Of a stretch of DNA of 64,000 nt, positions 16,701 to 63,418 are shown piece after piece. The stretch comes from Macrocystis pyrifera (lineage: Eukaryota; Sar; Phaeophyceae; Laminariales; Laminariaceae): positions 13,064,454-13,128,453 of the forward strand of contig JASSKH010000007.1 of NCBI GenBank assembly GCA_031763025.1, in the 5' to 3' direction. The notes beneath the pieces were generated by a model that ran no database searches, was not told the origin of the DNA, and saw only the letters and a list, made by a program, of their open reading frames with translations. Made by a program: the position numbers and the translations under genes. How positions within the stretch are numbered: position 1 is the stretch's first letter; the number at the start of each line of letters is the position of its first letter.

Positions 16701-19700
16701 CCGCCATGGACGGTAAGGTGGTCATGTGGAATCTACGAATGGGCAGTGAGGGAAAATACAAGGCGCCGAAGAAGGTACGCGCGTCATGTGGAGGCCTACT
16801 GATATTGAGGCGTTTCTAAGAGTGGACTGGTCAATGCAGGGTTAGTATTTCATTCGGGGTTGGCATCAAGAGTGTTGCGCATAGTTTTAAACGACAGAGT
16901 TAAAGGTTTAGGACGTTGCTGCGCTCCTGTATTCACGAAGAGAGAAATACCAGCGCCCGAAAAATCGATTGGCGGCGAATGGTCAGAGCAACCAAGAGTT
17001 CACCTCTGCGTTGAGCGCATAACTTTTCCCCTGACGCTCCTAACCCTACTGCCTGTGTGCTTGGTCCGACTGACTCCCGTATCATAGCTGTTCATCTTGA
17101 TTGGGCACTACCACGGAGTTCTGTCGCTCGCATACTCGAACGAGCACGACTTTATCTTGTCGGCGGGGTTCGATTTTGACGCCAACTGCTGGGACCGTAG
17201 CACCAGCCACTTGCACATGAAGCTCGCGGGACACACCCGCTCGCTCATCGGCGTGGTCATCGTGGAACATGAGACTCAGCGGGCCGTCACCGGGGACGAA
17301 GGCGGCTCCTTCCGCATCTGGGACATTCGGCGGGGTCACTCCGACCACGGCGCGTGTCTTCAGTCGTTCTCTCTCCGCAACACGCGGGCCTCACCTCGAA
17401 CAATGGCGGTCGTGTGGCGGGGAGGTCTAGTCGTGGCCGGGAGTAAAATGCACGCCTTCCGAGCGGCGCGAAATGTCACGGTCGGGGCGTCCCCGTCGGG
17501 GGTCTGGTTCTCCTCCTACACCGGAGAGCTTTGCGTTCTCCTGCGGGAGGCCGTTCTACTCGATGCGTCGACGGGGCAGATCAAGCGACGAACTTTCCAG
17601 CAGACACAGGGCCGTGAGATCACGGCCTTTTGTATGGACACGCGGCACAAGAAGGCGGTGGTGGGAGACCAGAGAGGCGGCTTGCGTGGGTACGACGTCG
17701 TCACCGGCAGGTGGATCATGTCGGCCACCCCGCACCGGTCGGAGGTGTCGGCGCTGCTGTTCATCGACGAGGACGACGTTTTTATCAGCGCGGGCTGGGA
17801 CAGGACGATTCAGGTGCACGATGCCAGAGTCCGCTCCTGTTCTGCTACCCGTGCGCAGAGCGTGCAGCACAACGCGGCGGATCAGCCACCTGTAGGGCAC
17901 AGGTCCGCGGTGTTGCTTAGGTCTGTTACCAACGCCCACGACGGAGACATCACCCTCATGGCGGCGTCGTCGCGCCTCGGGCTCTTGGCAACAGCGTCCA
18001 ACGACCTCACCGTGCGGGTGAGGCGATACAGAGACTGAAACAGTATTTGTTTTAGACCGCTGATGGCATTAAACGGGTTGGGACGTGTCGGCGGTTTATA
18101 TGTTTATGTCACTTATGTCTACGTCACTCTCGAGGCGTTGGTTTTTGTTTCTCTCTCTCGCGCGCCGCGTTTCCGGGCGGTTGGATTCAGGACGGTATTC
18201 AGGCGCAAGCGAATATGTTGGGCATTGTTTCGTGCTCACTGTGCGAACAGAAAGACCGCGACTGGCAGTTGCTGCTATTAACAGCGGCAGAAGTAACCGT
18301 TATATGAGCACGAACGACACGAATTGCATGGTATGTCTTCGGTTGAGTCGCCATAGCCAGACCATTCACGGTTCTCGCCAGTGGTACCATTATTTTGCTA
18401 GAATGGTAGTTTCTGCCCATCGTTTGCAGTGCGACAATCGAGGGCCATGATCTGTTGGATTTCGTGTGGTAGAACTTGACGGTAGTCGAAACCAAGCGTC
18501 GAAATTGCGTCTTGTTTGCTTGTTGTTTAGGTAGTACAGGTTGTACTCTCGGTAAGTCATTCCACGATAAGCAGAGCAACCACTTGACAACCTTATGCCC
18601 TCTCTTCTCTCGTGATCTACCTCGCCCAACACTAACTCCTCTGGTTGGGTGCACACCAGGGTATTAACTAGCTGTTGCGCTGTCGTGCTGGAGCAGCATT
18701 TGGGTCGCAATAGCGGTGTTGCGCAACACGTCTTTCGGGTCGCGCAGCATTTTTCGCCGCCGGCAAAATAAATGTTGCGGTTGTCTTTTTCGCCTGAGGC
18801 GAGAAAATATTTTGAGGCACCTTTTTACGTTCGCCGTGGGCAAAAAAAAGCGTTTTTAGGCGTCTAAACGCGCTTTGTCCAGTGGTTTTCGGTCATATAT
18901 TCACGCATATATTGCTTTGTGCAACATATTTCGGAACCCTAATCAATGCCCTTGGTGCACACACAAATGAAGGTGTGGGACTACGGTGTGCTGAGGCTGG
19001 AGGAAGTCATCGTGGCTCACCGGCAAGAAATCACGTGCGTTAGCTTCCTCGACCCGCTTCCCTGCCTCGCCACGGCAGACATGACGGGGAAGATCCTTAT
19101 ATGGGCTACTCGGCCTCATCTGAACGCCAGGAGCCTTCTACTGGTCCTACGCAACACCGTTATCACGGCGGGGGGCGTGTCCGGAAAGGCTTCGGACGCG
19201 GGAAGTCACGCTCGGGCTCAGCGGAAGGTCTTGCCGATTCCGGTCGTCTGTATCGCTTTCTGTCATGCAGCAGCTGTTGACACAGACACCATCTCTCGAG
19301 GGACGCCGCAGCCACAGGTGCCGGCGGAACGGGCGGCAGACTGCGAGGAGGTCGACAGGCCCGAAAAATCTCCTCAACTACCACTGCGACAGCCCGCAGA
19401 AGGACAAAGATCGTGGCTCCTAGCCGAGCCCTCAACGTCCCCCGAGGTCGGCAGTACGCTTTTCACGGGCGACGAGCTCGGTTCGATCAAGGTGTGGGAC
19501 TTAACCGGTGTTCTTCTTCGACAAACTCGGCCCAGTCACCTGCGGCGCAAGTCGCACCGAGAACAAGAGCGCCCCTTCGCCCGCATCGAGCAGCAGAAAA
19601 ACCCACCAGTCCGTGCACCACCGGCAGGGCCCCCTCGATGGCGTGGTGCTACAGGCCGCCCTTCGATTCACAGAACTGATCGAAATTGCTAAGTCGCTTC

Positions 19701-22700: not shown

Positions 22701-25700
22701 TGATGGACAACCCGGGCATCCAGGCCGATCCGTACTCTCACACGCTTCTACAGGAGCTCGCACGGTCGCGGGTGCTCCAGTGGAACCGAGCCCTATCTTT
22801 TGAGGAGCTCATGCAGGTATGCGCGGCGTAAGAGGCGAAACAGTTTCCTCGGCCCTCCCCCCCCCCCACCCTCCCCCTCCCTTCTCCCGCCCCAAAGTTT
22901 GCATGTTTGCGGTCGCAGCTACGAGGGGCTTCCGCATATACATGTTACGTGTTTCCACCTCCTGACTCAACTCTCCCCGCAATAGCAGAGGTCTGAAATA
23001 TGGGGTCTCGATTACGGCAACCTGGTGTTGATTTCACCAGCCAAACGTTTGTCTCTGCTGCTCCCACAAAGGGCAGGCGACAAACACATACCACGCGAAA
23101 GACCATTCCCCATGCCACGCGATGGCCCGTTCACGCGTGCGACGTCTCTTTGCGGGGGATGGGCTCAAGATTTTCCCCATATACCTCGACTTGTGCGCCT
23201 CACGATAACATCGCCCTTACACCAGAGTCTCCACGCTAACATCCTCTTGCACAGCGCCGCTGCCTCCTACGTAGCAAAAACAATAGCGCCCCTCTCTCTG
23301 TGTGTGTCAAACCTCTCCCATCCACGCCGAGTAGTGGCGTCGGCAAAATATCAACCGTACGAAGCCTTTGCACTATTGTCGTCGGCTCTTCGATCTGTTC
23401 TTTCCTGATCGCAAGCACAGTTTTTTTTTTTTTTTTGGCGGTCGCCCACAGCTGGTCGTCTAGTTAGATCATTTGTGCGAAGTAAAGAACCTTTACTCTG
23501 CACAAGGGAATTGATCGTATCACGTAGTGTTCAAGGTACGGCATCCAAGACGCAGGTACATAGTACTCCCATTGCTGTCTCTGGAAGTGGCCACACCGGA
23601 AACTATACTAACTCATTGAAGATGTTATCCATATTCAAGTCCGCCTCATAAGCGGTTCTTAGTAGGATGCAGCTCACCCTTCATGCGACTCGCCGGACAC
23701 CTCACGGCGCTTCGCGCTTGGTGCAAGCAATGTCTGCCTGGTCGGTGAAAACCCGACATGCTCCGTCCCGGCATTGTAGGGATGCGAGGGTCTATGGTCA
23801 TACGACTACGGCCATGCATGAGATCGAGTACATCTCTCCTATGGAGTACACCCCCCCCCCCTATAGTATAAACCTGGTATATATAGGTTGGATTGGAGTC
23901 GGTTGGCGATGACGCTGCGAAACACGCCTCTCACTACGTGAGCTAGACAGCCAGGGTACCGTTTTTTTGTTTTTGGTGGTCACCTCGGCTGGCGGTCGAG
24001 TTATATCATTTTTGTGCGGAGAGAACCTTCACTTCGCACAAGGGGGGTGATCGTATCACGTAGTGTGTGTGTGGTAAGGCACCCACGAGGCAGTTACATA
24101 GTAAACCCCTTGGTGGCTCTGGAAGTGGTCGCACCAAAAATTAGGTTAGTTATTGACACTGTCATCCATATGCAAGAAAATCCGGCCCAAAAGCGGTTCT
24201 TAGTGGGATGCAGCTCATTCTTCATGCGACTCGCCCAACACCTCACGGCGCTTCGCGCTTGGTGCAAGCAATGTCTGCCTGGTCGGTGAAAGCCCGATGC
24301 GCTCCGTCCCGGGATTGTAGGGATGCGAGGGTCTATGGCCATACGACTACGGCCATGCATGATAATGAGTACACCCGCCCCCCCCCCCCCCCTATATTGC
24401 ATACCTGGTATACATGTATAGGTTGGGTTGTCGTCGGTTGGCGACTACGCTGTAAAACACCCCACCCACTGCGTGAGCTAGACAGCCAGGGTACCGTTTT
24501 TTGTTTTTGGTGGTTCCCACGGCTGGCGGTCGAGTTAGATCCTTTTTTTGCGGGGGAGAAACTCTGCACAGGGGGGATGATCGTATCACGTAGTGTTTGT
24601 ATGGTGAGGCACTCACGAGGCAGTTACATAGTAAGCCCATTGCTGTCTCTGGAAGTGGCCACACTAGAAATTCAATCAATTCATTGAAGCTGTCACCCAT
24701 TTGCAAGAAAATCCGCCTCTAAAGCGGTTCTTAGTAGGATGCAGCTCACCCTTCATTCGACTCGCCCAACACCTCACGGCGCTTCGCGGTTGGTGCAAGC
24801 AATGTCTGCTTGGTCGGTGAAAATCCTACGTGCTCCGTCCTGGCATTGTACGGATGCGAGGGTCTATGGCCATACGACTATAGCCATGCATGATAATGAG
24901 TACCCGTCCCCGTCCCCGTCCCCGTCCGTTACTGCCTATGCCCACTCCTTATCTCCCTTTTGATCACCTCAACGACACGCAGTTGGTCTTCCACTTCGCA
25001 AAGCACGAGGAGATCAAGCGGATGGCAAGCATCATGGATATCGCTCTCCTGCTGGAGCGAGTGCGGGATGCCTTCCTCGCTGACAGGGGTTCTTTGCTTG
25101 GTGCCGACGGGGTTTTGTCTCCCCACTTCGCGAACGAGATCGACGTCACAGTTCGGGTACGCCGCCCGTGAAACGTTTCGGCCTCAGCCTCACAGGAGAC
25201 ATGCTCATACTGCAGAAATAATACGAACCAAGTAGCCACTACATGTAACAGTAGCGTCTCGCACGCTTGTCCTGGAATGCATTGCTGCTTCCTACATGTG
25301 GCCATCATACACATTCTTTTTTCCTTCCCCCGTTTATTGTCTTCGCCCTTCTTTTTTCCCTCCCTCCCAAGTAATCGTATCTCAGATCCGGGCTCAGCAT
25401 GGCAGGCTCTCCTCCCCCCTCCCCATTACGGTCTGTGCCCTCATCATCATTTGGATCCCGAGAAGACTTCAGCCCTTTCTTTCTACCCGTCGACTCGAGT
25501 CGAATGCGCCTACCCACCCCACGCGCTCTCTCTGCAGCCGATTCTATTCTCATTTCGAAGAATAAAATAATTTTTGTCACCCCGGTGGGATTTGAACTCA
25601 CGGAATCAAGTCTAGAAGCATTTATGGGCACCACTACTGTTTTGAAATAGGCCACGGGGGCGAGCCTCTCGCACGGCACCCGCGCTTCGGGGGCGCACTG

Positions 25701-27318: not shown

Positions 27319-27414
27319 GGGGGGGGGGGGGGGGGGGGGGTGTACTCATTATCATGCATGGCCGTAATCGTATGGCCATAGACTCGGGGGGGGGGGGGGG
27401 GGGGGGGGGGGGGG
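27319..27414 (-). repeat. Poly(C)-bounded repeat, 45-bp remnant between two G-runs
   Basis: G-runs at 27319-27340 and 27386-27414 enclose only TGTACTCATTATCATGCATG through CATAGACTC, which is the 3' end of the repeat in reverse. It is an extremely 5'-truncated copy that still has the homopolymer on both sides. It lies just downstream of the WD40 gene. Confidence 0.88.
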
Positions 27415-30557: not shown

Positions 30558-33500
30558 CTGAAAAGACAAATCGCCGGCGGCAGCAGCAGCAGCGGCGGCG
30601 GCGAGTTTGGTTGAGAAACGAGCGACGGTGGGTGGGTGAGTGGGTGAGTGGGAAGGAAGGTGCAAGAAAAGAGAAAAAGAAAACGGGAGGTGATGAGGGG
30701 CAAGGAAAAGGACAGACACGCTCTTTCGACGGCACTTTATCAAAATACGCGCTTAGCCGACGCAAAAAAACGTGCCAGGTACGGCGTAAAGACGCTTCCC
30801 TCGGCACCCTCCAACACCCCGAGAGAGTTACGGTAGACGGCCAATATCATAGCAACGAAAAAAAAAAAACGTATCAATAGTACTATTAAAAGTATTACGG
30901 GGGACCATGGTAAATAGGACCTACGGTACACACACAACAACAAAAATATGTAAATTCCTATTTTTGCTATACAATATTTGGTCCTGTTTACTATTACGGG
31001 GGTCCGTAGTTAATAGGACCTATGGTATACATAAAAACCTATATATTTACCTATTTTTACTAACAACATTTGGTCCTATTTACTATGGTCCCCCGTAACA
31101 GTACCAGCAGGGATTCTCAGCACCGAACCACTGTCCCCCGTGCCCGTTTCCCTACTCGCCAAAACGACAACGGCGGCCCACAAAACTGGCTGGGCTGTAA
31201 TAAAGTAAAAAGCACCAGCACGGGTTACCAGCACCGGACCCCCGTCCCCGTTCCCCTCGTTATCAAAACGCCCCCGGCGGCCAGGCTTGGTGGGCGCAAA
31301 GTCGTGCGTGATTGCGCGCGATCAAAATATCTTACTTGGAGACAGCTAAAATATTTTATTTGTATTGCGTGGGTGGAAACTAATTAATACCTTGAAATAG
31401 CATGGGTACATTAAAAAATTGACGTTGTATCGTACCAGGTAGGCTTTTGTGGATGTGCCGAACAGGGGTCGGGTGTCGCAGGAAAAAAAAACAACTATTA
31501 ACACTTTCGGCAGCAAAGATTTAAATTAAAGCTAATCATTAAATAGGTACACACCTGGTGGTATCCTCAACTACGAAAATAGAGTACTACGTGCTACTGC
31601 ACACGCACCGAGTACCATATGTACAAGTGCTCACTTTCTTTGGACAGGTCTTCCTCCTGCACCATGTCCAGCACCTCGTCCGGAATGGTCACGTACTTGA
31701 TGCTGTTGCCTCGCACATACACCTCCACCATCTTCACGAACTTATCTGCGTCCTAAGCGAAAAAAAACATTCGAGAAAAGAGGCGTTGGTAGGAGGGAGG
31801 GGAGCGGGGAGGGGGTGGGGCTTCACGCCCGAAACACATAACAAAAAGATGCACTTGTATTACGAATTCCGGAATCTGAAAATGTTGATTTCTGAATCTC
31901 TGTACGAATACTATGCAAGTACCCCTGCAATGATATTTCAGATACGTCAGCTGTGGCTTCGACCAAACTGGTCGATTCCCTACCCAACTATCAAAATATC
32001 AAAATGAACCAGTTTGCAACGCTGAGCGATACGTCACGCCAACAAGCGCGTGCGCATGTTCTATGATCTACAATAATATTGTAGAATGTTCCCTGTTTTG
32101 TGTACAGTAGAGGCAAATTATCATAGCATTTACCATCTATTGTTAGGGGGGACCATAGTAAATAGGAATAGGACCTACGGTACACACAAACCTCTATACA
32201 TTTTCCAATTGTTGCTATTTACTGTGGTCCCCCGTAATATTAATACGGGAGTCCGTAGAAAACAGGACCTACGGTACACACGAAAACCTATATATTTCCC
32301 TATTTTTACTGACAATATTTGGTCCTATTTACTATGGTCCCCCGTAAGAACAGTAGAGTACAACAATTCCTCCTATTTCACAGAACATTTCCAGACTATC
32401 ACGAAGACGTACTGCTGTAACACACGCCGGGAGACAACACATGCCGGACGACAGACACACAGACTCCGGGAGCCTTTTGCTTTTCGCAGAAAAGTTGCAT
32501 TTCTTCTGTGGAACACAGAAACACGCCGGATGCCGTCTATTAAAAAAAAAACTGTGTGTATTACAGTAGGTGTTTTGTTTCCGACCAGCGGGAAACGACT
32601 GAACTGCTGTACGTAGGTATATATATATATATACATGCAGACAAAAACGCATCTTGCGACGGTTTCGCCTTGAGATGCTTAGACGGATCAAACCCTTGAT
32701 GTTTGGACGGATAAAAAAAGCGATGCCGTCGCTGGCAGCATACAACAATAGTCGCATAGACACGGTAAAAACACACACACACACACGATTTACACGTGCT
32801 CCTCCTCTCGAATCTTCATTCAGATCTCGCGCGCGGCACGAAAAATAGACCCCCCCCCCCCCCCCCGACTCCTTGCGCTGTCGGAACGTCTTCTCTCGAA
32901 GCCAAAGCGGCGGTGGGTCGTGCATGTTGTCTTCGGGAAGAACAGATCATACGCAACACACATTTTTTTCGGGTGAATGTCCATATATACCAGGTATACG
33001 ATACATATGTCACGCGTACCTGATACGATAAAATAAACAAAAGTTGAGCATATTCAGGTACCTGGTATATATGCGATATCCGTGGGCAGGATGACGAAAG
33101 GCGGGAAAGGAGCCAGGAGAGGTTCAGGCGTGTGTCCCGCTTCGGCGTTGTCCGGCTGAAAAACACTGCTGCCACTCTACCGACTTCACGTGCTGAGCCT
33201 CTTTTTATTACTCTGAATTTCCAAGTTGAAAGACAGCCAGCGCATACTGCATAAATTACTGGGCTGGTAGACCGGTACCTGTTTTCGCTGCTAGCCTAGA
33301 CTACACCAGTACCAAGTTTGGTACCGCTCTCTGCCGGGACTATTATCTCCGTTTGATGGTTTTGTTGCTACAACGGGGGACCATAGTAAATAGGACCAAA
33401 TAACGCTAGTAAAAATTGTTAAATATATAGGTTTTAGTGTGTAACGTAGGTCCTATTTACTATGGTCCCCCGTAATAGCGTAGACTACAGCAGTCTGGGC

Positions 33501-36500
33501 CCGCCAACAAGAAACACCTAACCTGGGCAAGCCCGAGATTTTTATTGGGGCGCCATCTTCAAACGACCTTGAGCATAGGCTATTATATAGGATTTAGTGT
33601 AGAGTTCACTACTGAGCCGTTTTTCTTACCCAAATTTTCTCAAGAGTTCTCCAAAAAGTGAGCATTATGTTATCATTGGGCCTTATTGGGCACTTTCTTA
33701 GTGGCGGGCCTATACGAGTACTACTATACCAGTACCATGTTTGGTACCAAACTGGCCGCGAATATTATCCTCGTTTCATGTTCACTTTAGATTCCAAACG
33801 GTCACTATATTCCCGGCCAGAGCGGTGCCAAGTACCCTGTACTCGTACGGCATTTGGTGGTACTACTGTGCAGCAGTACAGGAATGCGAGAGTAACAACA
33901 CAACAAAAGGGTAGCAGCAGCAGCAGCAACAACAACAACAACAACAGTATCAAAAACATCGACGAGAGCGACAACAACAACAAAAATAACAAACACCACG
34001 ACGAAGGCAAGCAAAAGACGGGATGCGGTATAGATTTGCAATACAGCGGCGTCAACACGTACATATGTTGCGCGTACTCGTAGTGCTCCGCGCGTCCCAA
34101 CAACAAAACAGCGAATACTGCTGCACCGTTGTGCCCAGCACTACATATGCAACTACAACTATTAATATTGATAAAATAGAAGAGGAGTAAACACCAACAC
34201 AAGGCCAGAGCTGCTGCAAGTGCGGCTGTGAGGGTGGGTGGATGGATGTCAGTGTTGGGCCGTCTCTTCCTCTCTTACTGCTGTAGCAGCAAAACGTACA
34301 TCATGACAATTCATTACAGCAGTGCATTTATATGATATCAAACCAGCCAGGTTTATACCGGTCTGTCAGTTCATCAACGAAGTACCAGCAGGACATGACA
34401 CACAGCAGTGCAACTATTAATACTCTTACAGTGTCCACGGCATTGACAGCGCTGGATTGCTTGCTGCTCTCAGCAGTCTGCATACTTCGTGCTGCGGCCT
34501 CGGAATACTCACCGGAAAGTCCAGTAACCTTTAAGTTCCTCCCTTTCTGGTCTGGTATTATATGCTGGTATACTGGTGTGCTCGTATAACTGTATTACGC
34601 AACGTTAACGTAGCTGCACTGCTGGTAGGCTGGTGTGATACTGCCCTGCTGCGTTGTTAGTGATGCTATTGGTGATCATGTGCTATCAATGAGCGGTGGA
34701 GAGCATATGATATCATTAGAGTGGAGTGGAGATGTCCTGCTCTGGAGCTGAAGAAAGTTACCCATTGTACCCGTGACATGCCTCTTTCTGATACCGGTAC
34801 TATTAATACTACAGTATAATACTTGGTACATGTCAATATGTATGTATATATATATATATATATATATTTTACACCAGTCTACCGAGCCCTGGGGGGAGGG
34901 GGGGGGGTGTACTCATTATCATGCATGGCCGTAGTCGTATGACCATAGACCCTCGCATCTCTACAACCGACCAGGACCGAGCCTTGGGGGGGGGGCTTTG
35001 TTTAGTCTGCGCCCTTCTCTCCAGCAGAAACATCGCAGTAACAACAACGGTAGAAAGCGCAGCAACAACAGTAACCTCAACCGGCCCGGCACGCACGACG
35101 GCGCCTCGCGAAAAGCACACACACACAGGAGAGGGGTGAAAAAAAAAAGAGAGAGACATGGGAGGGATCTACTTGAAGCCCTCACCTACAGCAGAAGTCG
35201 TTACCTACTGCAGCTGCTATTCACTACTCGTTCCGGTATTTGTGCTCCTGTATAATCAAAACAGGTACAATGCCGGCGACTCTGGTACACTACCGCAAGC
35301 AGCAGTCGACGACTATTACGGGGGATCATAGTAAATAGGACCAAATATTGTCAGTAAAAATAGGTATATATACAGGTTTTATGTATACCATAGGTCCTAT
35401 TAACTATGGGCCCCCGCGTTAGTGTGGGTACACTGCTACGAGCAGCAGCAGCAGCCACAGCAGCCACAGCAGCAGCAGCAAACTGCTGCACCACCACCGT
35501 CACCAACAACAACATCGACGACTACAACCAATCACAACGACGACAGCAGCAGCAGCAGCAGCAGCAGCTTCAAAGCCGGGTGTACCATCCGCAGCAACCA
35601 CCCCAGCACAATCCTAAACGCCACGCGTAGGACACGTAGACAAGACGACGGACACCCACCGCGGCATTTTATGACGAAAACGCCTTTAATCATATAGCAT
35701 CCTATTCAAAGCTTTACGGCAGCCCAAGGTTGCTGCTGCTGTGCTGCTGCTGTACCGTCTTTCTGCTGTAGTGACGACGAAAAACACAACATCGATCGCT
35801 TGCGATCCTTCCACCGATCGTCCCAAAGGCCGTCACAGCCAGCAGCATCAAGTGTATCAAGGTATACCTGGTATGCCATTACCAGTACTCAGCATCCCGT
35901 CAGCACGACACCAGTTGTCGCAAATACTCGTGGCGTTGCGTGCGCTTGGCCGATCTAAAAATGCGGTTGCATAATCTAAGTCGAGGTTCTACGATACTAC
36001 ACCCCAGTTCAAGTAGCTCGGACAGCAGTAGCTCGGACAGCACGTTTCATGACCAGAGAAATTGATCTATTATTAATAAATACTAAATACGTACGACCCA
36101 CAATCTCACAGCAAGTGAGACAGCAGTAGACCACATGTCCAACAAAAATGTTCTGAGGCCGGTCTTTGTGGGCGCTTCTACTATTATATTAATAATGGGC
36201 CTTTTTCGGCCTTCACATACTACTAGTTTTAGTGTTGCAGGGCGGTCAGCCGAGGGGTCAAACCTCGATCCCCTCCTTATGTATACGGGTACCCGGTGCC
36301 TATATTTTTATGCTCAAAGTGCTGCTGTACTGGAACCCCGGGTACTCTACTGCTGGACCACTTGCTGTGTGTGTACTGGTATATACCAGGGTACCAGGTA
36401 CCACAGCAGCAGCAGCAGCAGCAGCAGCAGTGAGTGGTTTATTTTACTGCCCGTGACGACCTTTGCAACTCGGCAACGTGCAACGCTCAACGCAGCGACT

Positions 36501-43707: not shown

Positions 43708-44832
43708 TTGCTGGCCGTGCTGTGGGTGTCGGTAACCGTCATCCTCATCCCTAAGGAGCTCGCGGACATCAAGGGTAAACTTGCTGGTCTGGGCAACGAA
43801 GACCGTGCGGAGGTCCCGGTTCGTCTGCGGGGGGGCGGGAAACCCATTGAGGGGGATCCGGTGGGTCGTTTTGGGATTTGAAAAGTTGCACCACAGCCGT
43901 CCGTCCCGTCCGAAAGCGGCAGGTGTCTATTGGATGCGTATATACGAGGTGCCGCGGACGTAGCTCTTGCTTTTGTATGGGTGTTGCCGAAGCGTTTGCA
44001 CCTTGTCACGGAAAGTCGTATGATTACCCCCCTCTCTTCCCCCCCGCAAAAAATGTCTGCCTGGTCGGTGAAAACCCGACATGCTCCGTCCCGGCATTTG
44101 TAGGGATGCGAGGGTCTATGGTCATACGACTACGGCCATGCATGAGATCGAGTACATCTCTCCTATCGAGTACACCCCCCCCCCCCCCCCCCCCCGCATG
44201 ACACGAGTACTCCCCCCCCCTCCCCCCCCCCCCACAGACACACGCCCCCACTTGTAACACGTGTTTTGATGGCAGCCGTTGTGGACGAATTTCGTGGCGA
44301 GGGGGCTGCCTCTTCCCTTCGTCTTTTTTCTTACCGTCACTTTTGTGTGATAAGAGCACATTCGTCGGTTGCCCCCCCTCTCCCTAAAAACACGAGCTTA
44401 CGGTAGAGGAGGAGTTCCAATAGAATAGGCTGCCCCCCCCCCCCCCCCCCCCCCCCCTCCACTCCTCGCTCCTCCGTTTTGGGAATATTCGGCAGGATGC
44501 AAACACCGTGGAACACATCGCAGTAAATCGCGCAGGCTCTTCGACTGAACGACAAAAATCCATCGATGGTTGAGAAGCATGAAACCACACGACCCAGCAC
44601 ACACCAGGCATCCCCCCCCCCCCCCCACTTCCCCCCTTTCTTCCCCTCCCCCCCTCTGCTGCGTGGTCGGTGAAATCCCGACGTGCTCAGCCTGGCATTG
44701 GAGGGTTGCAAGGGTCTATGGTCACACGACTACGGCTATGCATGACATAAATACGCCCCCCCCCCCCCCCCCCCCCCCGCTCCGCCTCGGAGAGTCCCGT
44801 TCGCTCGTTCCCCCTCGCCCGAAAAATACGTC

Positions 44833-45259: not shown

Positions 45260-48200
45260 GCTGCCGCTGTTGCCGCCGCCGCTGCTGCTACTGCTGTTGC
45301 TGCTGGTGTGCTCCTGCTGTCACCATTGACTGTTGTTGCTGTGAGGTTGGGGAAAAGCCAACGGGTGATACGTAACCATCCTGTTTTAGTAACAGAGTTT
45401 TGTCTGTGTACCGTGTAGAGCAGACACTCAGCAGCACGAATGTCGTGATGCTGCGAGCTTGTATTGTCACACGAATGAGCTTTGACGGAACCGTACGTGG
45501 ACTGTTGGCGAGGTTGTGGGTCGGGGGCCATCACGCGCGCAGTAGCGTTGCAACTCTAGTTAGTAGTGGCTGCATTGTCAACTATTTGTTCATGTTTTTT
45601 TTTCTATTGGTTGGTGCGTAACCTAAGCGGTCTCTGCCAATCGTCCCCCCCCCTCCCCCCCCGGGAAGAGGAGGAAGTAGACGCACAGATGTGCCCGTGT
45701 GGCAAAGCAATAGAGAGTAGAACTCACATAGTAGGAGAATGTGAAATATACAAGGAGGAACGGGATGTGTTACAAGAGGATATGAGGAAAGTAGACGAAT
45801 GTGACATGGAGGAGTTTGATACAATGAATAGCAGCGAGAAAACGATCGCTATCCTAGGAGATAGATGGTGGCCACAGGAGGCCACACAGGAAGGGGGTAA
45901 GATTAGCAAAAAGTTTCCATGTCATTTATGGAAACAACGTAATGAGCGCCCAATTGTTGGAGGTGTCTCTATTAGGAGTAGGAACGGTGCTCCGTCTCGA
46001 AAGGGATGCGTGGTCAATGGTCAAATGACTAAGGCAAGCAACAAATGAGTACGCCCCCCCCCCCCCCCCCCCCCCCCCCCCCCACCCCCTCGCCCGTGTT
46101 TGCTGTCCTCCACGCACACTTGAACCTTCCCTTTTGAATCTCTCCCTTCCTCCCACCCTCCCCCCCTTCCGCCCCCCCCCTTCCCCTCCCCTCCCTCCCT
46201 TTGCCTCTCCGTTCACCTATATATATATATACCTGATATACATATTTTTTCAGGAGCCGCTAAAAATCTGGGATCTGTACAAGGCTGCGACTGATGAGTG
46301 GCTCATGCCGATGGATAGGTGAGAGCTAGCTATGTAGCCCGATCGACCGACACCTGAACGTTAAGTGTCCATGGGAGGTGGCGAGACCGCAGTCAGTGCG
46401 ACTAAAAGACTCGTAAAAATAGCGGTGTTGCTTATTTTTATTGATATTTTTAAGCGCACAGCCGTGCTGTAGTACCACAGGTTTTTCTTTCGGTAGTCCC
46501 CAGCTCTGTTTTTACCCGCTGTTCAGATCTGCGCTAGATGTAGTGTTTCGGAAACAAGGCGCGTCACACATCGATCCCCATTTGGTTTGACATTCTGTTG
46601 ACGGATATCGGGGCAGGGTACGTTTTCCTGATCTGTAGGACCCAGTATGATCTACAGTAGCTCATGTTTGCTAGATAGGAGCCGTATGGTCTGCCTAAGT
46701 CCTGGACTTGTTTTCCCGGATTGGATCTGCACTATTTACGGGGGGACCATAGTAAATAGGACCTACGGTACACACAAATACCTATATATTTTCCTATTTT
46801 TACTGACAATATTTGGTCTTATTTACTACTGCATGGTCCCCCGTATCACGCAGATCCTGCTCTACATCTCATACCGGCAGGCTAGCGTCTAGGTTTAATC
46901 TATTACGGGGGGCCATAGTAATTAGGACCAGATATTGTTGGTAAAAATATGTAAATATATAGGTTTTGTGTGTGTGTCGTAGGTCCTATTTACTATGGTC
47001 CCCCATAAATAGATAGATCGTCACCTGTCCGACGCGTGAAGTTCTTGGAGTTGCGCGAATAAGTTGTTTGCAATAGCGACAGGGTTGACCCCCCCCCCCC
47101 CCCCCCTCCTCCCCCCCCCCCCCCCCCCCCCTCCGTCCCGGCATTGTAGGGATGCGAGGGTCTATGGTCATACGACTACGGCCATGCATGAGATCGAGTA
47201 CATCTCTCCTATCGAGTACACCCCCCCCCCCCCCCCCGACCACCTCACAGTTGTGGTGGAACTCCCTTGTGCTTCCTGTTCCTCCTCTTACCCCCTCCCC
47301 GCCCCCCTCCACTGCTGTAAGCGGCGTTTTTTTTTTTTGCCTTTTAGCGGTGCAACTCCCCGCTGCTGTACCCTCCTCTTACCCCCCCCCCCCCTTCGTA
47401 TAGGTTGGGTTGGCGTCGGTTGGCAACGACGCTGTAAAACGCGCCAATCGCTGCGTTAGCTAGACAACCATGGTGTTTTTTTTTTTTGGCGGCCACCATC
47501 GCTGGTGGTCGAGTTATTGTAGATCATATTGTGCGGGGTGGAGAACCTTAACTCCGCACAAGGAGGATGGTCGCATCTCGTAGTGTGTAGGTATGGTCAG
47601 GCACCCACGAGGCAGTTTCAATAGCATACCCGTTGCTGTCTCTGGAAGTGGCTACACCTGAAACCAAATCAAAGTACTTGGACGCTGTCATCCATGCATA
47701 CGCAGGAAAAGACACGAGGTGCCGTTTGCGTCACAAGCGATTGTTAGTAGGATGCAGCTCGCCCTTCATGCGCCTCGCCGAACACGTCACGGCGCTTCGC
47801 GTTCGGCGCAAGCAATGCCTGCCTGTTCGGTGAAAACCCGACTTGCCATGCATGACAATGAGCATCCTCCCCCCCCCCCCCCCCCCCTCCCCTCACTGCT
47901 GCAGTGACGTTTCTCATCAGTTCACCTCCCCTCTATTTCCTCCTCCTCTTGCCCCCCGCCCCCCCCCCCCCCCCCCCCGCCCCCTCTCTTCCTCCCCTTA
48001 CCCCCTCACGGTATTGGCGTTGCTCGCCTGTGCAACTCCCCTGTAGCCCCTCTTTTTTTTTATCCTCCCCCCTTCCCGTTGTAGAGACGGGGGTCTACGG
48101 TGGTACGATTACGGCCATGCATGACAATGAGTGCACCCCCCCCCCCCTCCCCCCCCCCCGCCTACCGCCTCCTTATCGTCTTGCCTCTTTTTTACTCGTG

Positions 48201-51200
48201 TATCTCACTCCGCAGGAAAAGCGAGGGGCAGACTCTTTTTGAGGTGAGGGACGACAACAGCGTGTTCGTCAGCGTGGCGTCTTATCGGGACGAGAACTGC
48301 CCGACGACCTTGAAGGAGATGTTCTCCAAGGCCGATCGGCCGAGATTTCTTTTCGTGGGCTTGGTGCAGCAGGTGCGAGAGCGAGTTGAACGGAAAAGGA
48401 AAGGAAAGGGGGGGGGGGGGGGGGTGGGAAGGGAAGGGACGAGAACGGGGGGGGACGGAAGGCGAAGTATTGAGGAGGGAAATGAAATAAGCGGAACTGA
48501 GGAAGGGAAAGGAAAGGATCGTCGCAGCCTGTCCGTGGGCGATTTAGAGAGAGAAATGAGATTGGAAAGGAAGAAGGGGAGGGGAGGGGAGGGGGAGGGG
48601 AAGAGATAGTGTGGTGAGAGGGAGGGAGGGCGAGAGGGGGGCAGGACGGAAATAAAGGGGCGGGGAGGGAAAGGAGGATGAAAGAGAGGGGGAGAGGAGA
48701 GGATACATAAGAAGAGAAGGGAGGGCGGTGCGTGTGGAGGGGTGCACCCATTTAGGGGAGGGGGGGGATAGGGGAAAAAAGGAGGGAGAGAGGGGGTGGT
48801 GGTAGGGAAAGGGGGTGGGAGAGGGAGCTGTTGGTTTCTCTCGCCGGCGGTGGCAGCGAAGGGTTCGGGTTGGACAAGACCGGAAACAGTCGCGCGAAGT
48901 GCCGACATCCGACAAAGGGGCGTCGACGTCTGGTTGTTTTGCTTTTGTTAGCGTATCTCACTTTTGCGTTGCTCTACTTTTACTTGCACCTCAGTTTATT
49001 TTTTTTTTTTCATTTTTTTTCCCAATTCCTTTTTATTTATTTATTTATTTATTTATTTATGCTTGGTACCTACGTAGCGATGGCATCACTTCACTTCACT
49101 TTAGCTTTAGCTTTTTCGTGTACGTACCTGTGTTTCGCTCGGTTTTCGTAGAGAATCGCGCCGCTTTTGTCAGCCCACCCAGATTTCCCCGTTTGCCGAC
49201 AAGACCGAGTTCCCCCCCTCCCCCATCCAGATTTTCCCCCTTCCCGTCACCGCGTTTCATCCTCATCTGACCGGAGAGGCAGAGTCTACTCTGACTTTTT
49301 TTTTTTCCCTTTTTTTTTTGTTGCCTCACCCATAACTTTTGCTGCGCGCTTTTTCTGTTGTCGCTCGCAAAAAAAACCGGCGTCCCCTCAGAACTGCGAG
49401 GCTAACTGTAGGACGGGGGTGCTCGAGGGCGGCGAGGTTAGGGACACGGAGCCCGACATTGATTGCTACGAAGGTAAGGCAGAAATGGTGGCATGTTGTA
49501 TATGTGTGGGGGGGTGTCTGCGTGCTTTTGGCTTGGCTTGGGTCGGGCTGAGTTGGGTTGAGTTGGGTTGAGTTGGGTTGGGTCGGGTTGGGTCGGGTTG
49601 GGTAGAGTTGGGTCGAGTTGGATTTGATTGCCTGGCCTTGCCTTGCCTTGCCTTGCCTTGCCTTGCCTTGCCTTGCCTTTGTGGGAGCCGAGGACAGCAG
49701 TGACCAAATGAAACCGACGAGATGGTCTTTGCTTGCGTTATCGTGTGTGGCCTGCCTACGTACATAATGAAATGCGTGAAGCGCACAGCAAGTACATGCA
49801 TACAAGAAGTACCGCGCTGTGCCAGCGTTCTACGGACAACTCCTTGCATTGTGACATGCTGTGACATGCTGTGACATGCTGTGACATGCTGTGACATGCT
49901 GTGACATGCTGTGACATGCTGTGACATGCTGTGACATGCATGAGCTAACCAAACAGTGGCCGATACTATTCATGGGCCCGTTTTTTTTTTTTCGCCGTCT
50001 TTTTTTTTTTGTCGGTCAAAGCCCCCCAAGGAGCTGTAGACTAACACCACCACGGCCCAAAATATAGCTCCCATTTGAAATTTGATGTGAACATCAAACG
50101 GTTATTATATTTCCGGCCATAGTGGTGCCTATTTACGGGAGGCCATAGTAAATAGGACCAAATATTGTTGGTAAAACGTAGGGAAAATATTTATGTTTTT
50201 GTCTGTACCGCAGGTGTAATGTAGTACCTGCGCTGGGCGTTCGTACCGAGGTCGTCGCGGAGATGTCGCAGTGTCGAAGTCGCGGAGAAGTCGCCGTGAT
50301 GAATGAGGTCGCGGAGCGAGGGTCCCTTGTAGCCGTCGTTACGGCCGACGTAAAAAAGTAAGCCGAGCAGAGTTCTTCGTTGATATTTAGCAAGGAGATG
50401 CTAGAGCTAGTCTGACTCGGTGGGGGACACTTTTGGTCACCGCAGAGTCTGCGGCGGATAGTCTCCCGATCGCTATCTTGTTTACACGCGGCACGTGTTT
50501 TTTTCACGTGGACGTGTGTGGTGGGCTGAGTCGAACCCCATTCGGAACTGTACCGAAGTTTTCGGGGACAAACCGCTCAGATTCAAAGTAGTGCGAGGTG
50601 TTTGTTGCAGTAACCCATCAGCCGGAGGATTAAAAATATGATGAAAAAAATCACGAACAATAGTTTACATCATGTGGGTACCCCCCCCCCCCCCCCCCCC
50701 CGACTGAGGAGGGAAGCCACGCTGTATGTATACTACGAGAATTTTCCTTCGTTTGTTTGTTTGTTTGTTTTTTCTTCTTTTTGGTGTTTTCTCCTTTTTG
50801 TTGAGATGTGTTCCTGTCTGTTGAGATGTGTGTTTGAGTGATGAACGTTGAAGCTCATGCTGCACGTTGTTGAGGGCGGCGAACAGTGGCAAACGAGAAA
50901 AAAAATAGCAACGCTTCGTAGTTCCGAGACAGAACGAGCGCCTCGTAAGCATCGATCATGTCATGCAGAAAGGAGAGAACTGCACTGGTCCCGTGGACCG
51001 CGCAGACCCACGTGTCCAGGTCCTCGTGATGGTTCAACCAGAGTGAGATTGACAACCGAAAGGCGGAAGCGCTTGGAAGAAAAACGAAACGGCAGAAGAG
51101 CCGCCGCAACACCAGCGTAACCCAAAGCGCACTACTACTATACAATGGTAGAGGCCTGCACCAACAGCTACAATATTTCCCCACGGTGGACAAAAGAGGA

Positions 51201-51582
51201 GGCATGTTCACTCTTTTTTTATAGCGACCAAATCAATGATAGCTTTTGGTGTGATCCAACCATTTTAGGAGCAGCGTCAGCGCCTAGCAGCACGGGTAGC
51301 ATCATGTTGCCCATGCATGATATTGAGTACTCCCCCCCCCCCCCCCCCCCCCCATGCAGAACACGCCTCCTTGCCTTGTATCTCGGACACCAACCATTGT
51401 ATCATCCACCGATGAACTCAGTTTTTACCGTTGCTGGAAATCGTCACATTTCGGCGTCAATTTTCGCCCTTTCCAGCCAGCCCTAAGAGGCTTGAAGAGA
51501 CATGTTTTCGGCATGTACCACACACCTCTCTGTATGCGGTGGGTGCATTGCTGACATCTCGCGCCGTCGCCACCTCTTTCCC

Positions 51583-51634
<52 letters not shown>

Positions 51635-54600
51635 TCCCGCTTGATCTCTTTTCGAGCCCAGAGTTTTGCGCGACGGAGCTTGGCGCGGAGTACTGCCAGA
51701 TGGGAAACGTGCGAAATTTCTTGGTCGACGAGGCGGACGCCCTGGGCCCCGCGGTAGCGCGGTGAGAAAAATATTGGAAAAATAGTTATGGGAAACAAAA
51801 AAGTAACACCGGGCTGCGTGGCTTTTTTGGGGGTGTAATTGGCCCGACGAGCCTAATGATATGCAGCGCTGACGCTTGCGTGATTATCGGGACTGTTGGG
51901 ACTGTTGGGACTGTTGGGACTGTTGGGACTGTCGGGACTGTCGGGACTGTCGGGACTGTTGGGGCTGTTGGGACTGTTGGGACTGTTGGGACTGTTGGGA
52001 CTGTCGGGACTGTCGGGACTGTCGGGACTGTTGGGGCTGTTGGGACTGTTGGGACTGTTGGGACTGTTGGGACTGTTGGGACTGTCGGGATTGTTGGGAC
52101 TGTTGGGACCTTCGGGACTGTTGGGACTGTTGGGACTGTTGGGACTGTTGGGACTGTTGGGACTGTTGGGACCGTCGGGACTGTTGGGGCTGTTGGGATT
52201 GTTGAGACTGTGGGGATTGTTGGGAATGCTGTTAGGGCTGTTGGGACTGTCAGGAATCTCTGGACTGTCGAGACTGTCAGGATTGTCGGGACTATGGGGA
52301 TTGTTGAGAATGCTGTCAGGGCTGTTGGGACTGTCAGGAATCTCGGGACTGTTGGGGCTGCCAGGAATGTCGGGACTGTTGCGATGTTAGGACTGTTGGG
52401 ACTGGCAGGACTATCAGGACTGTCGGGACTGTCAGGACTATCAGGATGTCAGGACTGGCGGGCCTGTCAGCAGTGTAGGGGCTGTAAGGCCCGCTGGGAT
52501 TGTCGAGAGTTTCGGGACTGTCAGAACTTTCACGACTGCCAGAACTGTTGGCCGGACTATTGGGATTGACGGGACTGCCAGGACTGTCAGGACTGTTGGG
52601 ATGGTCGTGCCTGTTGGGATTGTCAGAATTGCTGGGATTTTCTGGTGTCAGGACTGTCATGACTGCCGGGACTGTCAGGCTAATCGTTGATACCCCGCCT
52701 CGAGGCCTTTCGAGACCGTCAGAACCGTGGACTGCCGGGCTAATCGTTGATACCCCGCCTCGAGTAGTCTAGTCGCCGCGGGTTAGCGCACAATACGTTG
52801 TTACACTTTCATGCCGTACCCTGCCGTCGTGCACCTGCAACGTTTTTCTTCTTTCGTTTTTGTACTCGTATTTTCCGTTTTTCTTTCGATTTTTTTGTTC
52901 GATTTCTTTCATCATTTCTCCCCCCGCCCTTTTCGTTGTCGTTGTTGTTGTTGTTGTTGTTGTGTTTGAATTATGTTTGTTAATCGAAGTTCTTCGTTTT
53001 TTCTTCGTTTTCCCCCCCCGTTTTGTTTCCCGTTTAATCCCGTTTCGTTTCGTTTTGTTCTGTTTTGTTTTGTTTCGGCCACGCACGCACTATACGCCAG
53101 GTATTTCGCGTCGAAGCTATGGAACGGCGAGAACTTTTTCATGCAGATCGACGCGCACAGCTTGTTTGAGGTCGGGTGGGACAACCTGCTGATCAACGAC
53201 ATCCTCAAGTGAGGCATGCCGCGGTTTGAGGGCGAGGGGGGAAAGTGTATTCATGTCATGTCATGCATGGCCGTAGTCCTATGACCGTACACCCCAGCAT
53301 CCCTGCAATGCCAGGAGGGAGCACGCCGGGTTTGGGGGGGGAGGAGGCGGGGAGGAGGGGGGGGGCGGGAGGGGAAGGGGCGAGAGGGGGAGGGGGAGTG
53401 GGAGCACAATCAGTCGTTGCTGCCGGCATGTTATGTGTCGGGTTTGCTGTAGATGTGAACGGCGGCGGCGAGAGGGGGGAAGGGCTCGCCGATAAAAGCG
53501 ATGCTTCGAGGACGCTGTCTCGCCTGCGTTGCACTACCCACAAAAAAAAAGCTGACATCACCAAAAGTCCCGAGAACGAAGACAATGGAAGCACGTCTGC
53601 CGCCGTTTTTTTTTGCGAGGACTTTTTCGTTTCTCTGCTCCAGCTCCGAACGTTTCCATCGAGCCAAAATTTGGCAGGGCAGATATGAGCCCCTCCTTGG
53701 TGCGCTCCCGTGAGTGCGCCAAAGAGACAGCACTTTTCGTGTCCTCCTTCGGGGCGGACCTCGTCGCTGAGGGTTGAAAATGTGGTTCCAGGCGCTTGAA
53801 TTTTCGGCTTCTTGTGCAGCAGTAGCCAAGTATTTTTTTTTCTGGTGGTAGAACGAAAAGGAGAAAGGTACTCGTAGCTTCTAGGTTATCCTCCTGGTCG
53901 TTCTGCACCAGAAAAAAAAAAAATACTTGGCTTTACTGCTGTACAAGAAACCGAAAATTCAAACGCCTGCAACCATATTTTCAATCTTCAGCGACGAGGT
54001 CCGCCCCGAAGGAGGACGCGAAAAGTGCTGTCGCTTTGGCGCACTCACGGGAGTGCACCAAGGAGGAGCTCATATCTGCCCTGCCAAATTTTGGCTCGAT
54101 GGAAACGTTCGGAGCTGGAGCAGAGAAACGAAAAAGTCCTCGTAAAAAAAACGGCGGCAGACGTGCTTCCATTTTCTTCGTTCTCGGGACTTTTTTTTGT
54201 TTCGTGGGCGGTGCACCACAGGTGGTTTTGTGATAATCCCTTTTTTTCAGCATGTGTGTCGATGAGTTCTTGGCGTAGCCTTGATCCTGGTTTGTCTCTT
54301 GGTTGGTTTTGGATGGTGGACTTCTTCCGGGTCTGCCTCAGTCCTTCTCGGGTGACTTTTCTAGCTGCCGCTGTGCTGACGGAGCGTCTGCGGGTTGCGG
54401 TTGGAAATGCGCCACTTTGCGAGCCCTCCGTACCCCCCCCCCCCCCCCCCCCCCCACCCCCCCCCCGCCTCCAACCTCCTAATGCCCGAGGGACCTCTTA
54501 CCTACAGTATGCTAAAATACTGCCAAAGCTTGTGCGGAGAGAACGCGTTGTGTCCTACAATCTAGCGTACCGCAGCCCCCCTGCTTTCAGTGCCCAGCCA

Positions 54601-56616
54601 CGTACTGTTCCGTGGCCGCCTGGCACGCCCACGCTCCATGAAGGTCACAGGAGCTCAGCCTCCCCGCGCTCGCTATCGCTTGAAGAAAACGGCGATTAAA
54701 TATATAAAGCAATCGCCCCCCCCCCCCCCCCCCCCCCCCCCAAATTCTCCCCTTCTACTTAATCTTGCCCCAATCCAACTCCCGCTTACCCCTCCCGCAA
54801 CCCCCAACCCCCCCCCCCTCATCCCTCCAACCCCACGCCACGCCCATCCAATCCCTACCCCCCCTCAACCTCCCCCTCCACCCCCCCCACCCCCGACATT
54901 CTCCACGCCCCTTCTCTCTGTCGCCCGCACTCTCAGCACTCCTTCGTACCCACGATCGGTGCTGTCGCACTACCCTCCGGACACTAAAGTCAAGTACCAG
55001 AATCAGGCGGGATACCGAATATGCGGGGCGGAGTTCGCGCAGAGCCCGGTGGAGTACGACATCGTCCGTCTCGGCCCGGGAATCCCGCACGACTCTCGCG
55101 TGCCAAGTAAACCTTGGTGCGTTTTTTTTTTTTTTTTTTTGTGGCGAATTGTAGTATATACCCTGGTGCACGACTTTTTGCGTTTTTGAGTTTTTTTTCG
55201 CGTTTTTTGAGACACGTGTTTTGGAAAATGTGTTTTGAGACTTTAGCGTTTTGGGAATGCGTTTTTTTTTTTGATGATGTGTTTTGAGACTTTTGCTTTT
55301 TGATATTGCGTTAATTTTATAGAGTGTTTTGACATATAGTGATTTAATTTTTAACACGAACTACGTAGTGAGATTTTGATAATTTGATAATGTGTTTTGA
55401 GGGGTGGTTTCTAAGGACCTGCGTTTTGAGGATGCGTGTTTTCAGAATGAGTTTTTCGGAGAATATGTGTTGAAAATGCGTTTTGAAGACTGCGTTTTTT
55501 TTTTTTGCAAGAGTGCATTTTGATAATGCGTTTTTTTTTTTCAAGTGCGTTTTATGAATGCACGCTCGCGAGATGCCTTATCTTTGCCCCGCGCCCCGCC
55601 TCGCTTCCCCCCGCCCTGTGTCGTCTCGGGATGCCATGCCCTGCCCTGGTACCAACGATGTCGGTGTTCAGTGGAAGTAGGCGGTCTGGACCCCCCCCCC
55701 CCCCCTCTCCCCTCCCTCCTGACTTGGCGTTTAGTTCTGGTGACTCTGGTACCGTTAAAGATGAGGGTAACTCCCGCTCACGTGGGTGACTCCACCCCCT
55801 CCGCCTGCCCGCCTCTTTGTGAAATGGTACCACATCTTGTGCGCGGTTGCGTCGTTTCGTTCCCGTGCTACCGTGCGTAGTTGTTGTGGATGCCGCACCA
55901 CCCCTGCCGAATGTTTTTGTTTCACATGCGAGCCCTCGATGATTGGTCGATGTGTAGGGACGAATTTTCGGTTCGTAATCATTTTTGAAAAAAAAAATCT
56001 GCCGGGGGAAAAAAAAACGCTCCCCCCCCCGCGCGATCTCTCGGCCTCTTCCTGGCCCTCTGCTTCTCTCGCTCCGCGCTCCGTATACCCCCACTCCCAC
56101 CCGTCCGCCCCCACTCCCCAACTCTTCCCCCCCCTCCCCCTCTCCTCTAACCCCCCCCCCCCCCCCCCCGGTCAAGTTAGATCATTTTTGTGCGGGGAGA
56201 ACCTTCACTCCGCACCAGGGGGATGATCGTATCACGTGGTGTGTATATGGTGAGGCACCCACGAGGCAGTTGCATAGTAAACCCATTGCTGTCTCTGGAA
56301 GTGGCCACACCAGAAATTAAATCAGTTCATTGATGCTGTCATCCATATGCAAGAAAATCCGCCACTAAAGCGGTTCATACTAGGATGCAGCTCACCCTAT
56401 ATGCGACTCGCCCAACGCCTCACGGCGCTTCGCGCTTGGTGCAAGCAATGTCTGCCTGGTCGGTGAAAACCCGACGCGCTCCGTCGCGGCAATGTTGGGG
56501 TGCAAGGGTCTATGGCCATACGACTACGGCCATGCATGATAATGAGTACACCCCCCCGCCCCCCAAACTCCCCCCTCCCCCTCCCGCCTCCTCCTCCAAC
56601 CCGCTCCCCTACCTCT

Positions 56617-60654: not shown

Positions 60655-60731
60655 CGTCCGGTCTGTGGTCATGCGACTACGGCCATTCGTGATATCGAGT
60701 ACCCACCGACCCCCCCCCCCCCCCCCCCCCC
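60655..60731 (+). repeat. Poly(C)-bounded repeat, minimal 3' end
   Basis: GTCCGGTCTGTGGTCATGCG, CTACGGCCATTCGTGATATC, GAGTACCCACCGA, then a C-run to 60731. Confidence 0.82.
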
Positions 60732-62394: not shown

Positions 62395-63418
62395 GAAAAC
62401 GGAGACAGTGCTGCTTGCGGACACCGAACCAAGCACCCCAGACCTCACCGCTCGTCATCGAAGCAGCAGGACAGAGGTATAAACAGACGATGCAGTTCTT
62501 GTACCTGGGTGGTCTTGTCGTCGCAAGCGCTGACATTATGAAAGAGATCACACGACGGATCCGACTCGCATGGGCATGCTACGATCGGTTCAAACGAGAG
62601 CTGTACGATATGGAGGATGTCCCGTTCACCCTGAAAGTGCGCATGCTAAAGACCGAGGTGATGGAGACCCTGCTGTACGGGTGCGTGACATGGACTCTTG
62701 GCCAGGACCACTTCGCTGAGCTGCGAACGGCACACCACAAACTCCTCCTATTACGGGGGGTCCATAGTTAATAGGACCTATGGTATAGGTAAAAACCTAT
62801 ATATTTACCTATTTTTACTAACAAAATTTGGTCCATTAACTATGGACTCCCGTAATAGTAATTATTGGCTTCCAGCGTCGACAACGCACTGACCACCTCA
62901 TGTCGTACGCCAAGGCCCTCAAAAAGGCACACTGCGAGAGCGTTAAGACGACCATCCGCAAACGACGCCTCCTCTTTGCGGGGGGCGTACAGCGGACGAC
63001 CAATGAGCGGCTGACCCGCCGGGTGATGTTTGGGACGATGGCTGGTGGGAAGAGCCCAGGACCAGGTCGACCAGAAAATAACTGGGCCCATGTCTAGCAG
63101 ACGACCTCAGGGTTTTTCAAGCCACCGAGGGGTACACGGAAAGCTCCCCTTTACTGTTCGGAGTAGAGACGGTGTTATGGTCGACGTCGGCTGAGAAGAG
63201 CGGGAAGTGGTACCGAGGAGTCGTCGAAGCGGCGGACTGTTTCATGACGAGGTGGCACAGGGACGAGGCGCAGAGAAGCTGGCTGCGCCACGCAGCTGAG
63301 GGAGCCAAGAGCAGCGACAAGGAGAGCGGGGGGGAGGGGGGGGGGGGGGGGGGGGGGCAGCCGTATCGATACAGCTGTCGACGAATGCAGAAACGAAATG
63401 ATAGATCGGATGGCTAGG
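62395..63418 (+). pseudogene. LINE (non-LTR retrotransposon) reverse transcriptase C-terminal remnant
   Basis: Begins in the RT thumb region (VIEAAGQRYKQTMQFLYLGG, ITRRIRLAWACYDRFKRELY, VRMLKTEVMETLLYGCVTW), typical of LINE polymerases. It is interrupted at 62751-62855 by a family 1 MITE and resumes as IGFQRRQRTDHLMSYAKALK. The frame shifts near 63090 (NNWAH, then CLADDLRVFQATEGYTESS) and is broken again by a G-run at 63331-63357. The frame after it reads IDTAVDECRNEMIDRMARYQ before a stop. The 5' part of the element is missing. It appears distinct from the LINE fragment at 45644-46083, although the two do not overlap in domain. Confidence 0.85.
62751..62855. mobile_element. MITE family 1 inserted in LINE remnant
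   Basis: TTACGGGGGGTCCATAGTTA to TATGGACTCCCGTAA, 105 bp, flanked by TA on both sides (62749-62750 and 62856-62857). The LINE reading frame is recognisable immediately before and shortly after it, which fixes the element borders well. Confidence 0.93.

Follow-up and report, generated by a model that had tools for sequence, protein, structure and literature searches.

We analysed a 64,000-nucleotide stretch of the genome of the brown alga Macrocystis pyrifera (contig JASSKH010000007.1, contig coordinates 13064454-13128453; hereafter the window) and found that a short non-autonomous retroelement, about 525 bp long when complete, and a long interspersed nuclear element (LINE) have a common 3' end followed by a run of C (C-run). 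The two very probably integrate by target-primed reverse transcription (TPRT) at genomic C-runs. The evidence for this consists of the LINE domains, the common 3' end, the poly(C) tails, the C-runs of the same strand at the 5' junctions, the nesting of copies, the C-runs at paralogous empty sites and one clear target duplication of 9 bp, all of which we observe in the window or in the 537 Mb of genome sequence that was searched.

In the mechanism we propose, the endonuclease of the LINE would nick the G-strand inside or next to a C-run of the genome, and the freed G-run end would anneal to the poly(C) with which the RNA ends, thereby priming reverse transcription. Synthesis would frequently stop early, leaving a 5'-truncated copy, and the new 5' end would be joined to the C-run on the far side, so that C-runs of the same strand flank the copy. 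The target duplication would be the C-run itself, at times with a few additional bases. Every insertion would carry a C-run able to receive the next copy, and head-to-tail nests would arise for this reason. The RNA is expected to end in poly(C), and the nick, the priming by the G-run and the growth of the tail are steps that we infer from sequence.

Copies of the short element

The first-pass annotation of the window, made from its letters, had listed a series of segments as related copies of one dispersed family, and all of them proved to be so: the terminal 19-mer of the short element has 13 matches in the window with up to three mismatches and none in 100 shuffles. The copies, together with one fragment of the partner LINE, are as follows (Cn denotes n consecutive Cs).

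1831-2396, - strand: near full-length short element; C29 tail, C12 on the 5' side
23421-23861, + strand: array copy 1, 5'-truncated at the internal poly(T) (starts with T16), no 5' C-run; C11 tail
23862-24392, + strand: array copy 2, full length, its head adjoining the tail of copy 1; C15 tail
24393-24935, + strand: array copy 3, full length, its head adjoining the tail of copy 2; own tail decayed to (CCCGTC)n
27319-27414, - strand: 5'-truncated short element, about 45 bp of element; C29 at 5', C22 at 3'
34891-34995, - strand: 5'-truncated short element; 5' side C10 then AAGGCTCGGT, 3' side C-rich tail then AGGGCTCGGT
44045-44195, + strand: 5'-truncated short element; C-runs on both sides, C21 tail
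44659-44778, + strand: 5'-truncated short element; 5' flank C-rich, C23 tail
45645-46083, + strand: 5'-truncated partner LINE, broken at its 5' side within C9TC8 (45645-45662); C30 tail
47089-47237, + strand: 5'-truncated short element adjoining a 43-nt interrupted C-run; C17 tail
47382-47887, + strand: near full-length diverged short element; C13 before, C19 after
48079-48159, + strand: 5'-truncated short element; C6 near the 5' side, C12TC11 tail
51311-51353, + strand: terminal fragment of about 20 bp plus C22; no 5' C-run
53239-53333, - strand: old 5'-truncated short element; C8 at the 5' side, tail degenerate
56151-56577, + strand: 5'-truncated short element adjoining C19; tail C-rich
57261-57488, - strand: 5'-truncated short element; C6 ahead of the 5' end, tail C-rich
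59149-59241, + strand: two terminal fragments head-to-tail, C9 in between
60660-60731, + strand: 5'-truncated terminal fragment; C22 tail, clean 5' C-run absent

The complete copies that we examined start with TATATTATATACCTGGTATATATAGG or a near variant, preceded by a C-run; the 5'-terminal sequence of the complete element is TATATTATATACCTGGTATATATAGGTTGGGTTGGCGTCGG or a near variant, and the poly(T) is internal. The 3' terminus reads ...CATGCATGATAATGAGTAC(N) and is followed by the C-run. The fixed 3' end described in the first-pass annotation does not apply to every copy: one subfamily has ...ATCGAGTACATCTCTCCTATCGAGTACA as its end before the C-run, and the tail of the copy at 53239-53333 is degenerate. 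Genome-wide, the terminal 19-mer has 3,363 exact matches (1,723 + 1,640) and its reversed control has none, and a C6 lies within 3 nt downstream in 1,177 of the 1,723 forward copies. In counts of gapped patterns one strand column multiplies long C-runs; we therefore took the column that lists each copy once, which is the forward column for the tail with C6 and the reverse column for the head with 5' C6 (below).

Judged from its sequence, the short element is not a canonical short interspersed nuclear element (SINE) in the strict sense, that is, one with an RNA polymerase III promoter and a head derived from tRNA, 7SL or 5S RNA, because no Rfam family, no tRNA and no box B were found. The whole window had no Rfam match at the gathering score, a search of 23400-24960 at E ≤ 10 returned two weak unrelated matches and nothing else, a tRNA scan in the bacterial setting found no tRNA, and no box B with up to two mismatches was present in two copies of the element (one of them has matches with three mismatches). 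The reverse reading, a SINE whose poly(A) tail appears as the internal poly(T) of the element strand, was dropped, as the complete head extends beyond the poly(T); the orientation is settled because the 3' end of the LINE fixes the direction. When 14 copies were aligned, ATGGCC/GGCCAT looked like a possible 3' stem, but some of the copies disrupt it and we do not claim it. Searches gave no result in phage records and no match in viral contigs; in prokaryote contigs, 38 stretches each matched a bacterial or archaeal contig once, and we judged these from their titles to be chance matches.

A LINE with a homologous 3' end

Clustering C-runs on their upstream sequence yielded a LINE family with the end ...GACTAAGGCAAGCAACAAATGAGTACG plus poly(C). 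Its copy in the window, at 45645-46083, contains a C-terminal reading frame with a CPCG...H...C motif and a TGA at 46046-46048, followed by GTACG and then C30. The stop codon is thus part of the 3' end, with 5 nt between it and the C-run, as it is in two longer copies, L110 and L111, whereas in a third, the 3.5-kb copy L069, the reading frame continues instead of stopping there. A genome-wide search with the C-terminus gave 17,347 first-look candidates, and the 150 of these that were scored all matched, at 89-95% identity, the query's own place aside.

The longer copies (L069, L110 and L111) contain a reverse transcriptase. RVT_1 was matched by a piece of L110 (E 7.7e-16) and a piece of L069 (E 8.8e-12), and in the PDB the reverse transcriptase pieces matched R2 (E 3e-5) and L1 ORF2p (E 0.002). 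Upstream of the reverse transcriptase, L110 has an endonuclease domain of the apurinic type (Exo_endo_phos_2, E 4.1e-6, 27.1 bits against a cut-off of 27.4), with the motifs GDFN and DH, which we take to be those of the endonuclease; the match in L069 reaches E 0.018 only. As in the short element, the 3' end of the LINE is fixed and its 5' truncation is variable.

Over their last 75 bp, the short element and the LINE align with a score of 45, compared with a maximum of 20 over 2,000 shuffles, and outside these approximately 75 bp they are dissimilar. The common end is ...GAGTAC(N) plus poly(C). By this 3' end the short element belongs to the LINE-dependent type, and the LINE with the same end and tail is likely to be its driver; the short element would then be mobilised by the poly(C) LINE. 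The first-pass idea of a retroelement that targets poly(C) is largely upheld by the insertion sites described below. The first pass knew the short element alone, and its list of segments had omitted the fragment at 45645-46083, which represents the likely machinery. Two other LINEs among the best RVT_1 matches, L072 and L073, contain no C-run longer than 6 over the 2 kb examined and seem to terminate in (AC)n or (AAC)n, and therefore poly(C) is not general among the LINEs of this genome. These two form another LINE lineage and have GTTTAATGTGAAGA in common, after which their simple repeats differ, being (AC)n and (AAC)n.

C-runs at insertion sites

At the 5' junctions we looked for C≥6 over a span reaching from 30 nt on the 5' side of the break to 5 nt inside, and found it at 33 of 44 junctions, whereas the share among random positions is 2.1% for the sample and 3.9% for the window; G≥6 was found at none of the 44. 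The 44 junctions derive from 52 rows after four chance matches to poly(T) and four rows starting at the end of a locus were dropped; merged arrays and nests count as one each, and loci found by similarity are included besides those of a 200-kb grid picked independently of the element. Genome-wide, C6 lies within 25 nt upstream of a 23-bp head anchor in 346 of 570 reverse-strand copies, and G6 occurs within 25 nt 5' of none of the 570 heads on either strand. The LINE copies L069, L110 and L111 also begin at C-runs or within about 10 nt of them. The first-pass annotation had held that the break abuts a same-strand C-run in most copies and had proposed an enrichment of flanking C-runs as a check; the enrichment is clear, while the rule is not universal, as array copy 1 lacks the 5' C-run and the fragments at 51311-51353 and 60660-60731 have no clean one (the exception at 53239-53333 concerns the tail).

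These counts bear on the explanation that the genome is simply rich in C-runs, and that copies survive near them or that runs grow beside old copies by slippage. C/G-runs of ≥10 are indeed numerous (57 in the window, 52 in the grid), and most of them have no recognisable family tail, which was present at 14 of 52 in the grid (27%) and 16 of 57 in the window. However, such passive accumulation sets a chance rate of 2-4% for C≥6 at a random position against the 33 of 44 observed, it predicts 5' G-runs about as frequent as C-runs, of which none was found, and the run is already present in the empty paralogs described below. We consider this explanation extremely improbable.

Copies also follow each other in one direction. 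The segment 23421-24935 is made of three short-element copies head-to-tail with C-runs in between, and genome-wide 67 of 1,152 heads sit 6-36 nt behind a AATGAGTAC tail with a C-rich stretch in between; in 20 of these 67 the preceding tail carries a G (AATGAGTACG), as LINE copies do. No tail-to-tail pair was found genome-wide with a stricter pattern (13 + 13 bases, compared with 9 + 23 bases for head-to-tail). Nesting behind tails implies that the C-run tail is itself a target, and its orientation is the one expected if the G-strand acts as primer. The nests and the 5' C-runs would also be accounted for by template jumping, in which insertion could occur anywhere and the reverse transcriptase, once at the (truncated) end of one RNA, would jump to the poly(C) tail of another; a one-strand head-to-tail nest would then be the product of a single event.

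Empty sites and target duplications differ between template jumping and integration at existing C-runs. We searched the joined flanks of eight distinct sites, four in a first search and seven in a second (the last one shortened); all 40 rows listed in the first belonged to the L069 site, and the other three sites were searched again in the second. The L069 copy of the LINE lies inside a multicopy repeat, and when its flanks are joined, at least 40 places match them across the junction at 95-98% identity. All 20 empty copies that were read have a single run of C7-C14 exactly at the insertion point, with the layout CTCAAACT-C-run-ATGCTCCAACACC and single-base variants, and this is the sole C6 run in about 250 bp. 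The filled site has a 9-bp duplication, ATGCTCCAA, on both sides, the left one adjoining C10 and the right one coming after the C22 tail plus a single A. L061, the second such site, holds a short element in a row with a LINE fragment; its flanks match one filled duplicate, L131, and 30 listed places span the junction, of which 19 empty copies, 73-80% identical, were read. An uninterrupted C≥5 is present at the junction in 13 of these 19; run lengths were counted by script in 17 of the 19 and taken from the alignment for L116, with C7, and L130, with C4.

The empty copies thus show that the C-run predates the insertion at L069 and suggest the same at L061, so that insertion into a pre-existing simple repeat is found at the first site and, more weakly, at the second; the first-pass expectation of a bare C-run at empty sites is borne out to this extent, at paralogous sites. 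Template jumping leaves these runs unexplained because they were there before the insertion, and it is contradicted at L069 and disfavoured at L061. It also predicts a duplication outside the left C-run, and duplications of ≥5 bp in that position were found at 1 of 42 junctions, with 0.9 expected. Overall, we regard template jumping as quite improbable. The joined flanks of the six other sites matched themselves, with no paralogs across the junction, and a search for empty sites in the sampled sequence gave nothing beyond C-rich stretches and matches of the sites to themselves. In an array of about 11-kb units on the contig labelled C125, one unit seemed to be missing, but this was rejected as an empty site, the stretch compared not being homologous. 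At about 1.487-1.656 Mb of C125 (L070) there are about a dozen short-element copies, spaced mostly about 11 kb apart, which probably form a tandem array amplified after insertion; in L070, the sole copy of the array that was read, a LINE end follows the short element.

Between the left C-run and the element, duplications of ≥5 bp were found at 5 of 42 junctions, where 1.1 were expected (p 0.002). Two of the five are long, that of L069 and that of the window copy at 34891-34995, where the repeat of flank bases next to the C-run is a probable target duplication. These data bear on a variant of TPRT at C-runs in which the endonuclease has no sequence preference, and the site is picked only by annealing of the tail to G-run ends arising from nicks or breaks of other origin, for example at fragile C/G-runs. 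C-runs can be prone to breakage, and target duplications beyond the C-run are rare and variable, both of which speak for this variant. On the other hand, the clean duplication at L069 (the C-run plus 9 bp) fits an enzymatic staggered cut, and we consider the variant rather unlikely, though a serious alternative to nicking at the C-run.

Several observations weigh against integration at C-runs by a poly(C) LINE. The endonuclease match of L110 is 0.3 bit under the curated Pfam cut-off, and the endonuclease pieces had no relevant match in the PDB. C≥6 is absent at 11 of 44 junctions, although several of these are old or do not represent genuine 5' ends, and C6 is missing from the 25 nt next to 224 of the 570 anchored heads; the first copy of the window array is among these exceptions. 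At some 5' junctions there are unexplained bases between the C-run and the head. Readable empty paralogs were obtained at two of the eight sites, neither of which holds a lone short element; the empty sites compared are paralogous, not orthologous, and 6 of 19 empty copies of L061 have C3-C4 only. Of the five duplications between the left C-run and the element, three are short, of low complexity or overlapping the element's own bases. Non-C duplications are few, and among 16 further junctions selected for odd bases beside the head (7 without a tail in the stretch examined) none of the 9 with a readable tail has a duplication of ≥5 bp.

The tail of C22 at L069, compared with C7-C14 in the empty sites, indicates that insertion can add Cs and thereby renew landing sites. 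As the tail is the target homopolymer, the copies might act as self-propagating landing pads, and we tentatively raise the possibility, at somewhat less than even chances, that the LINE and its partner are a main reason why this genome is so rich in poly(C).

Related systems and other features of the window

Tails that match the target are usually poly(A) or short repeats. Mammalian L1 and Alu insert into the A-tails of Alus, where the tail homopolymer is the landing site and head-to-tail nests arise, with poly(A) there and poly(C) here. Kibi, Koshi and Waldo are microsatellite-targeting LINEs, to which two more can be added from the literature.

Togen inserts into (TG)n (PMC4640811) and Dong into (TAA)n (PMC2887409); the pair described here likewise uses a pre-existing simple repeat, but the target is a C-run and a non-autonomous partner has the same habit. 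Target-specific LINEs mostly carry a restriction-like endonuclease (PMC4640811), unlike our LINE with its apurinic-type domain. In RTE-clade LINEs of Lepidoptera, a simple-sequence 3' end begins almost immediately after the stop codon, microsatellite families are spread by truncated copies, and the insertion sites seem not to be sequence-specific (PMC2887409). Our LINE resembles these in that its stop codon nearly adjoins the simple-sequence end, and differs in that both tail and target are mononucleotide. In the brown alga Ectocarpus, RTEX-N1_Ec32 is a non-autonomous family of about 600 bp with more than 6,000 copies, whose 3' end is conserved with autonomous RTE-X LINEs and for whose 5' region the authors give no origin (PMC12477816). 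Compared by description, it is like our short element in size class, in being non-autonomous and in having its 3' end in common with a LINE, but the accessible part of that description mentions no poly(C) tails or C-run targets (PMC12477816). In the open-access literature, with most subscription papers outside the search, we found no report of a LINE that is both poly(C)-tailed and poly(C)-targeting.

A pair that uses poly(C) on C-runs would make the role of pairing between tail and target in TPRT directly testable, and would separate it from the A-rich preference of L1. It also offers a cause for the expansion of poly(C) tracts in a genome, and the nested tails may record the order of insertion.

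A very abundant repeat of about 110 bp resembling a miniature inverted-repeat transposable element, with ends like ACGGGGGTCCATAGTTAAT...ATTAATTATGGACCCCCGT, is present in the window at about 30987-31102, 32238-32347, 33368-33478, 35310-35416, 46736-46845, 46900-47008 and 62744-62859. It was also seen in L046, where it splits a short-element copy, and in L048, L049 and L053. Near the old short-element copy at 53239-53333 there is an inverted duplication (53563-53863 and 53892-54194, 92% identical). Two reading frames at 17097-19692 match WD40 beta-propellers and are probably exons of one gene. A long tandem repeat of 9 bp (GGGACTGTT-like) at 51887-52676 translates as a collagen-like frame, and at 49850-49939 a 10-bp unit, TGTGACATGC, is repeated in nine perfect copies.
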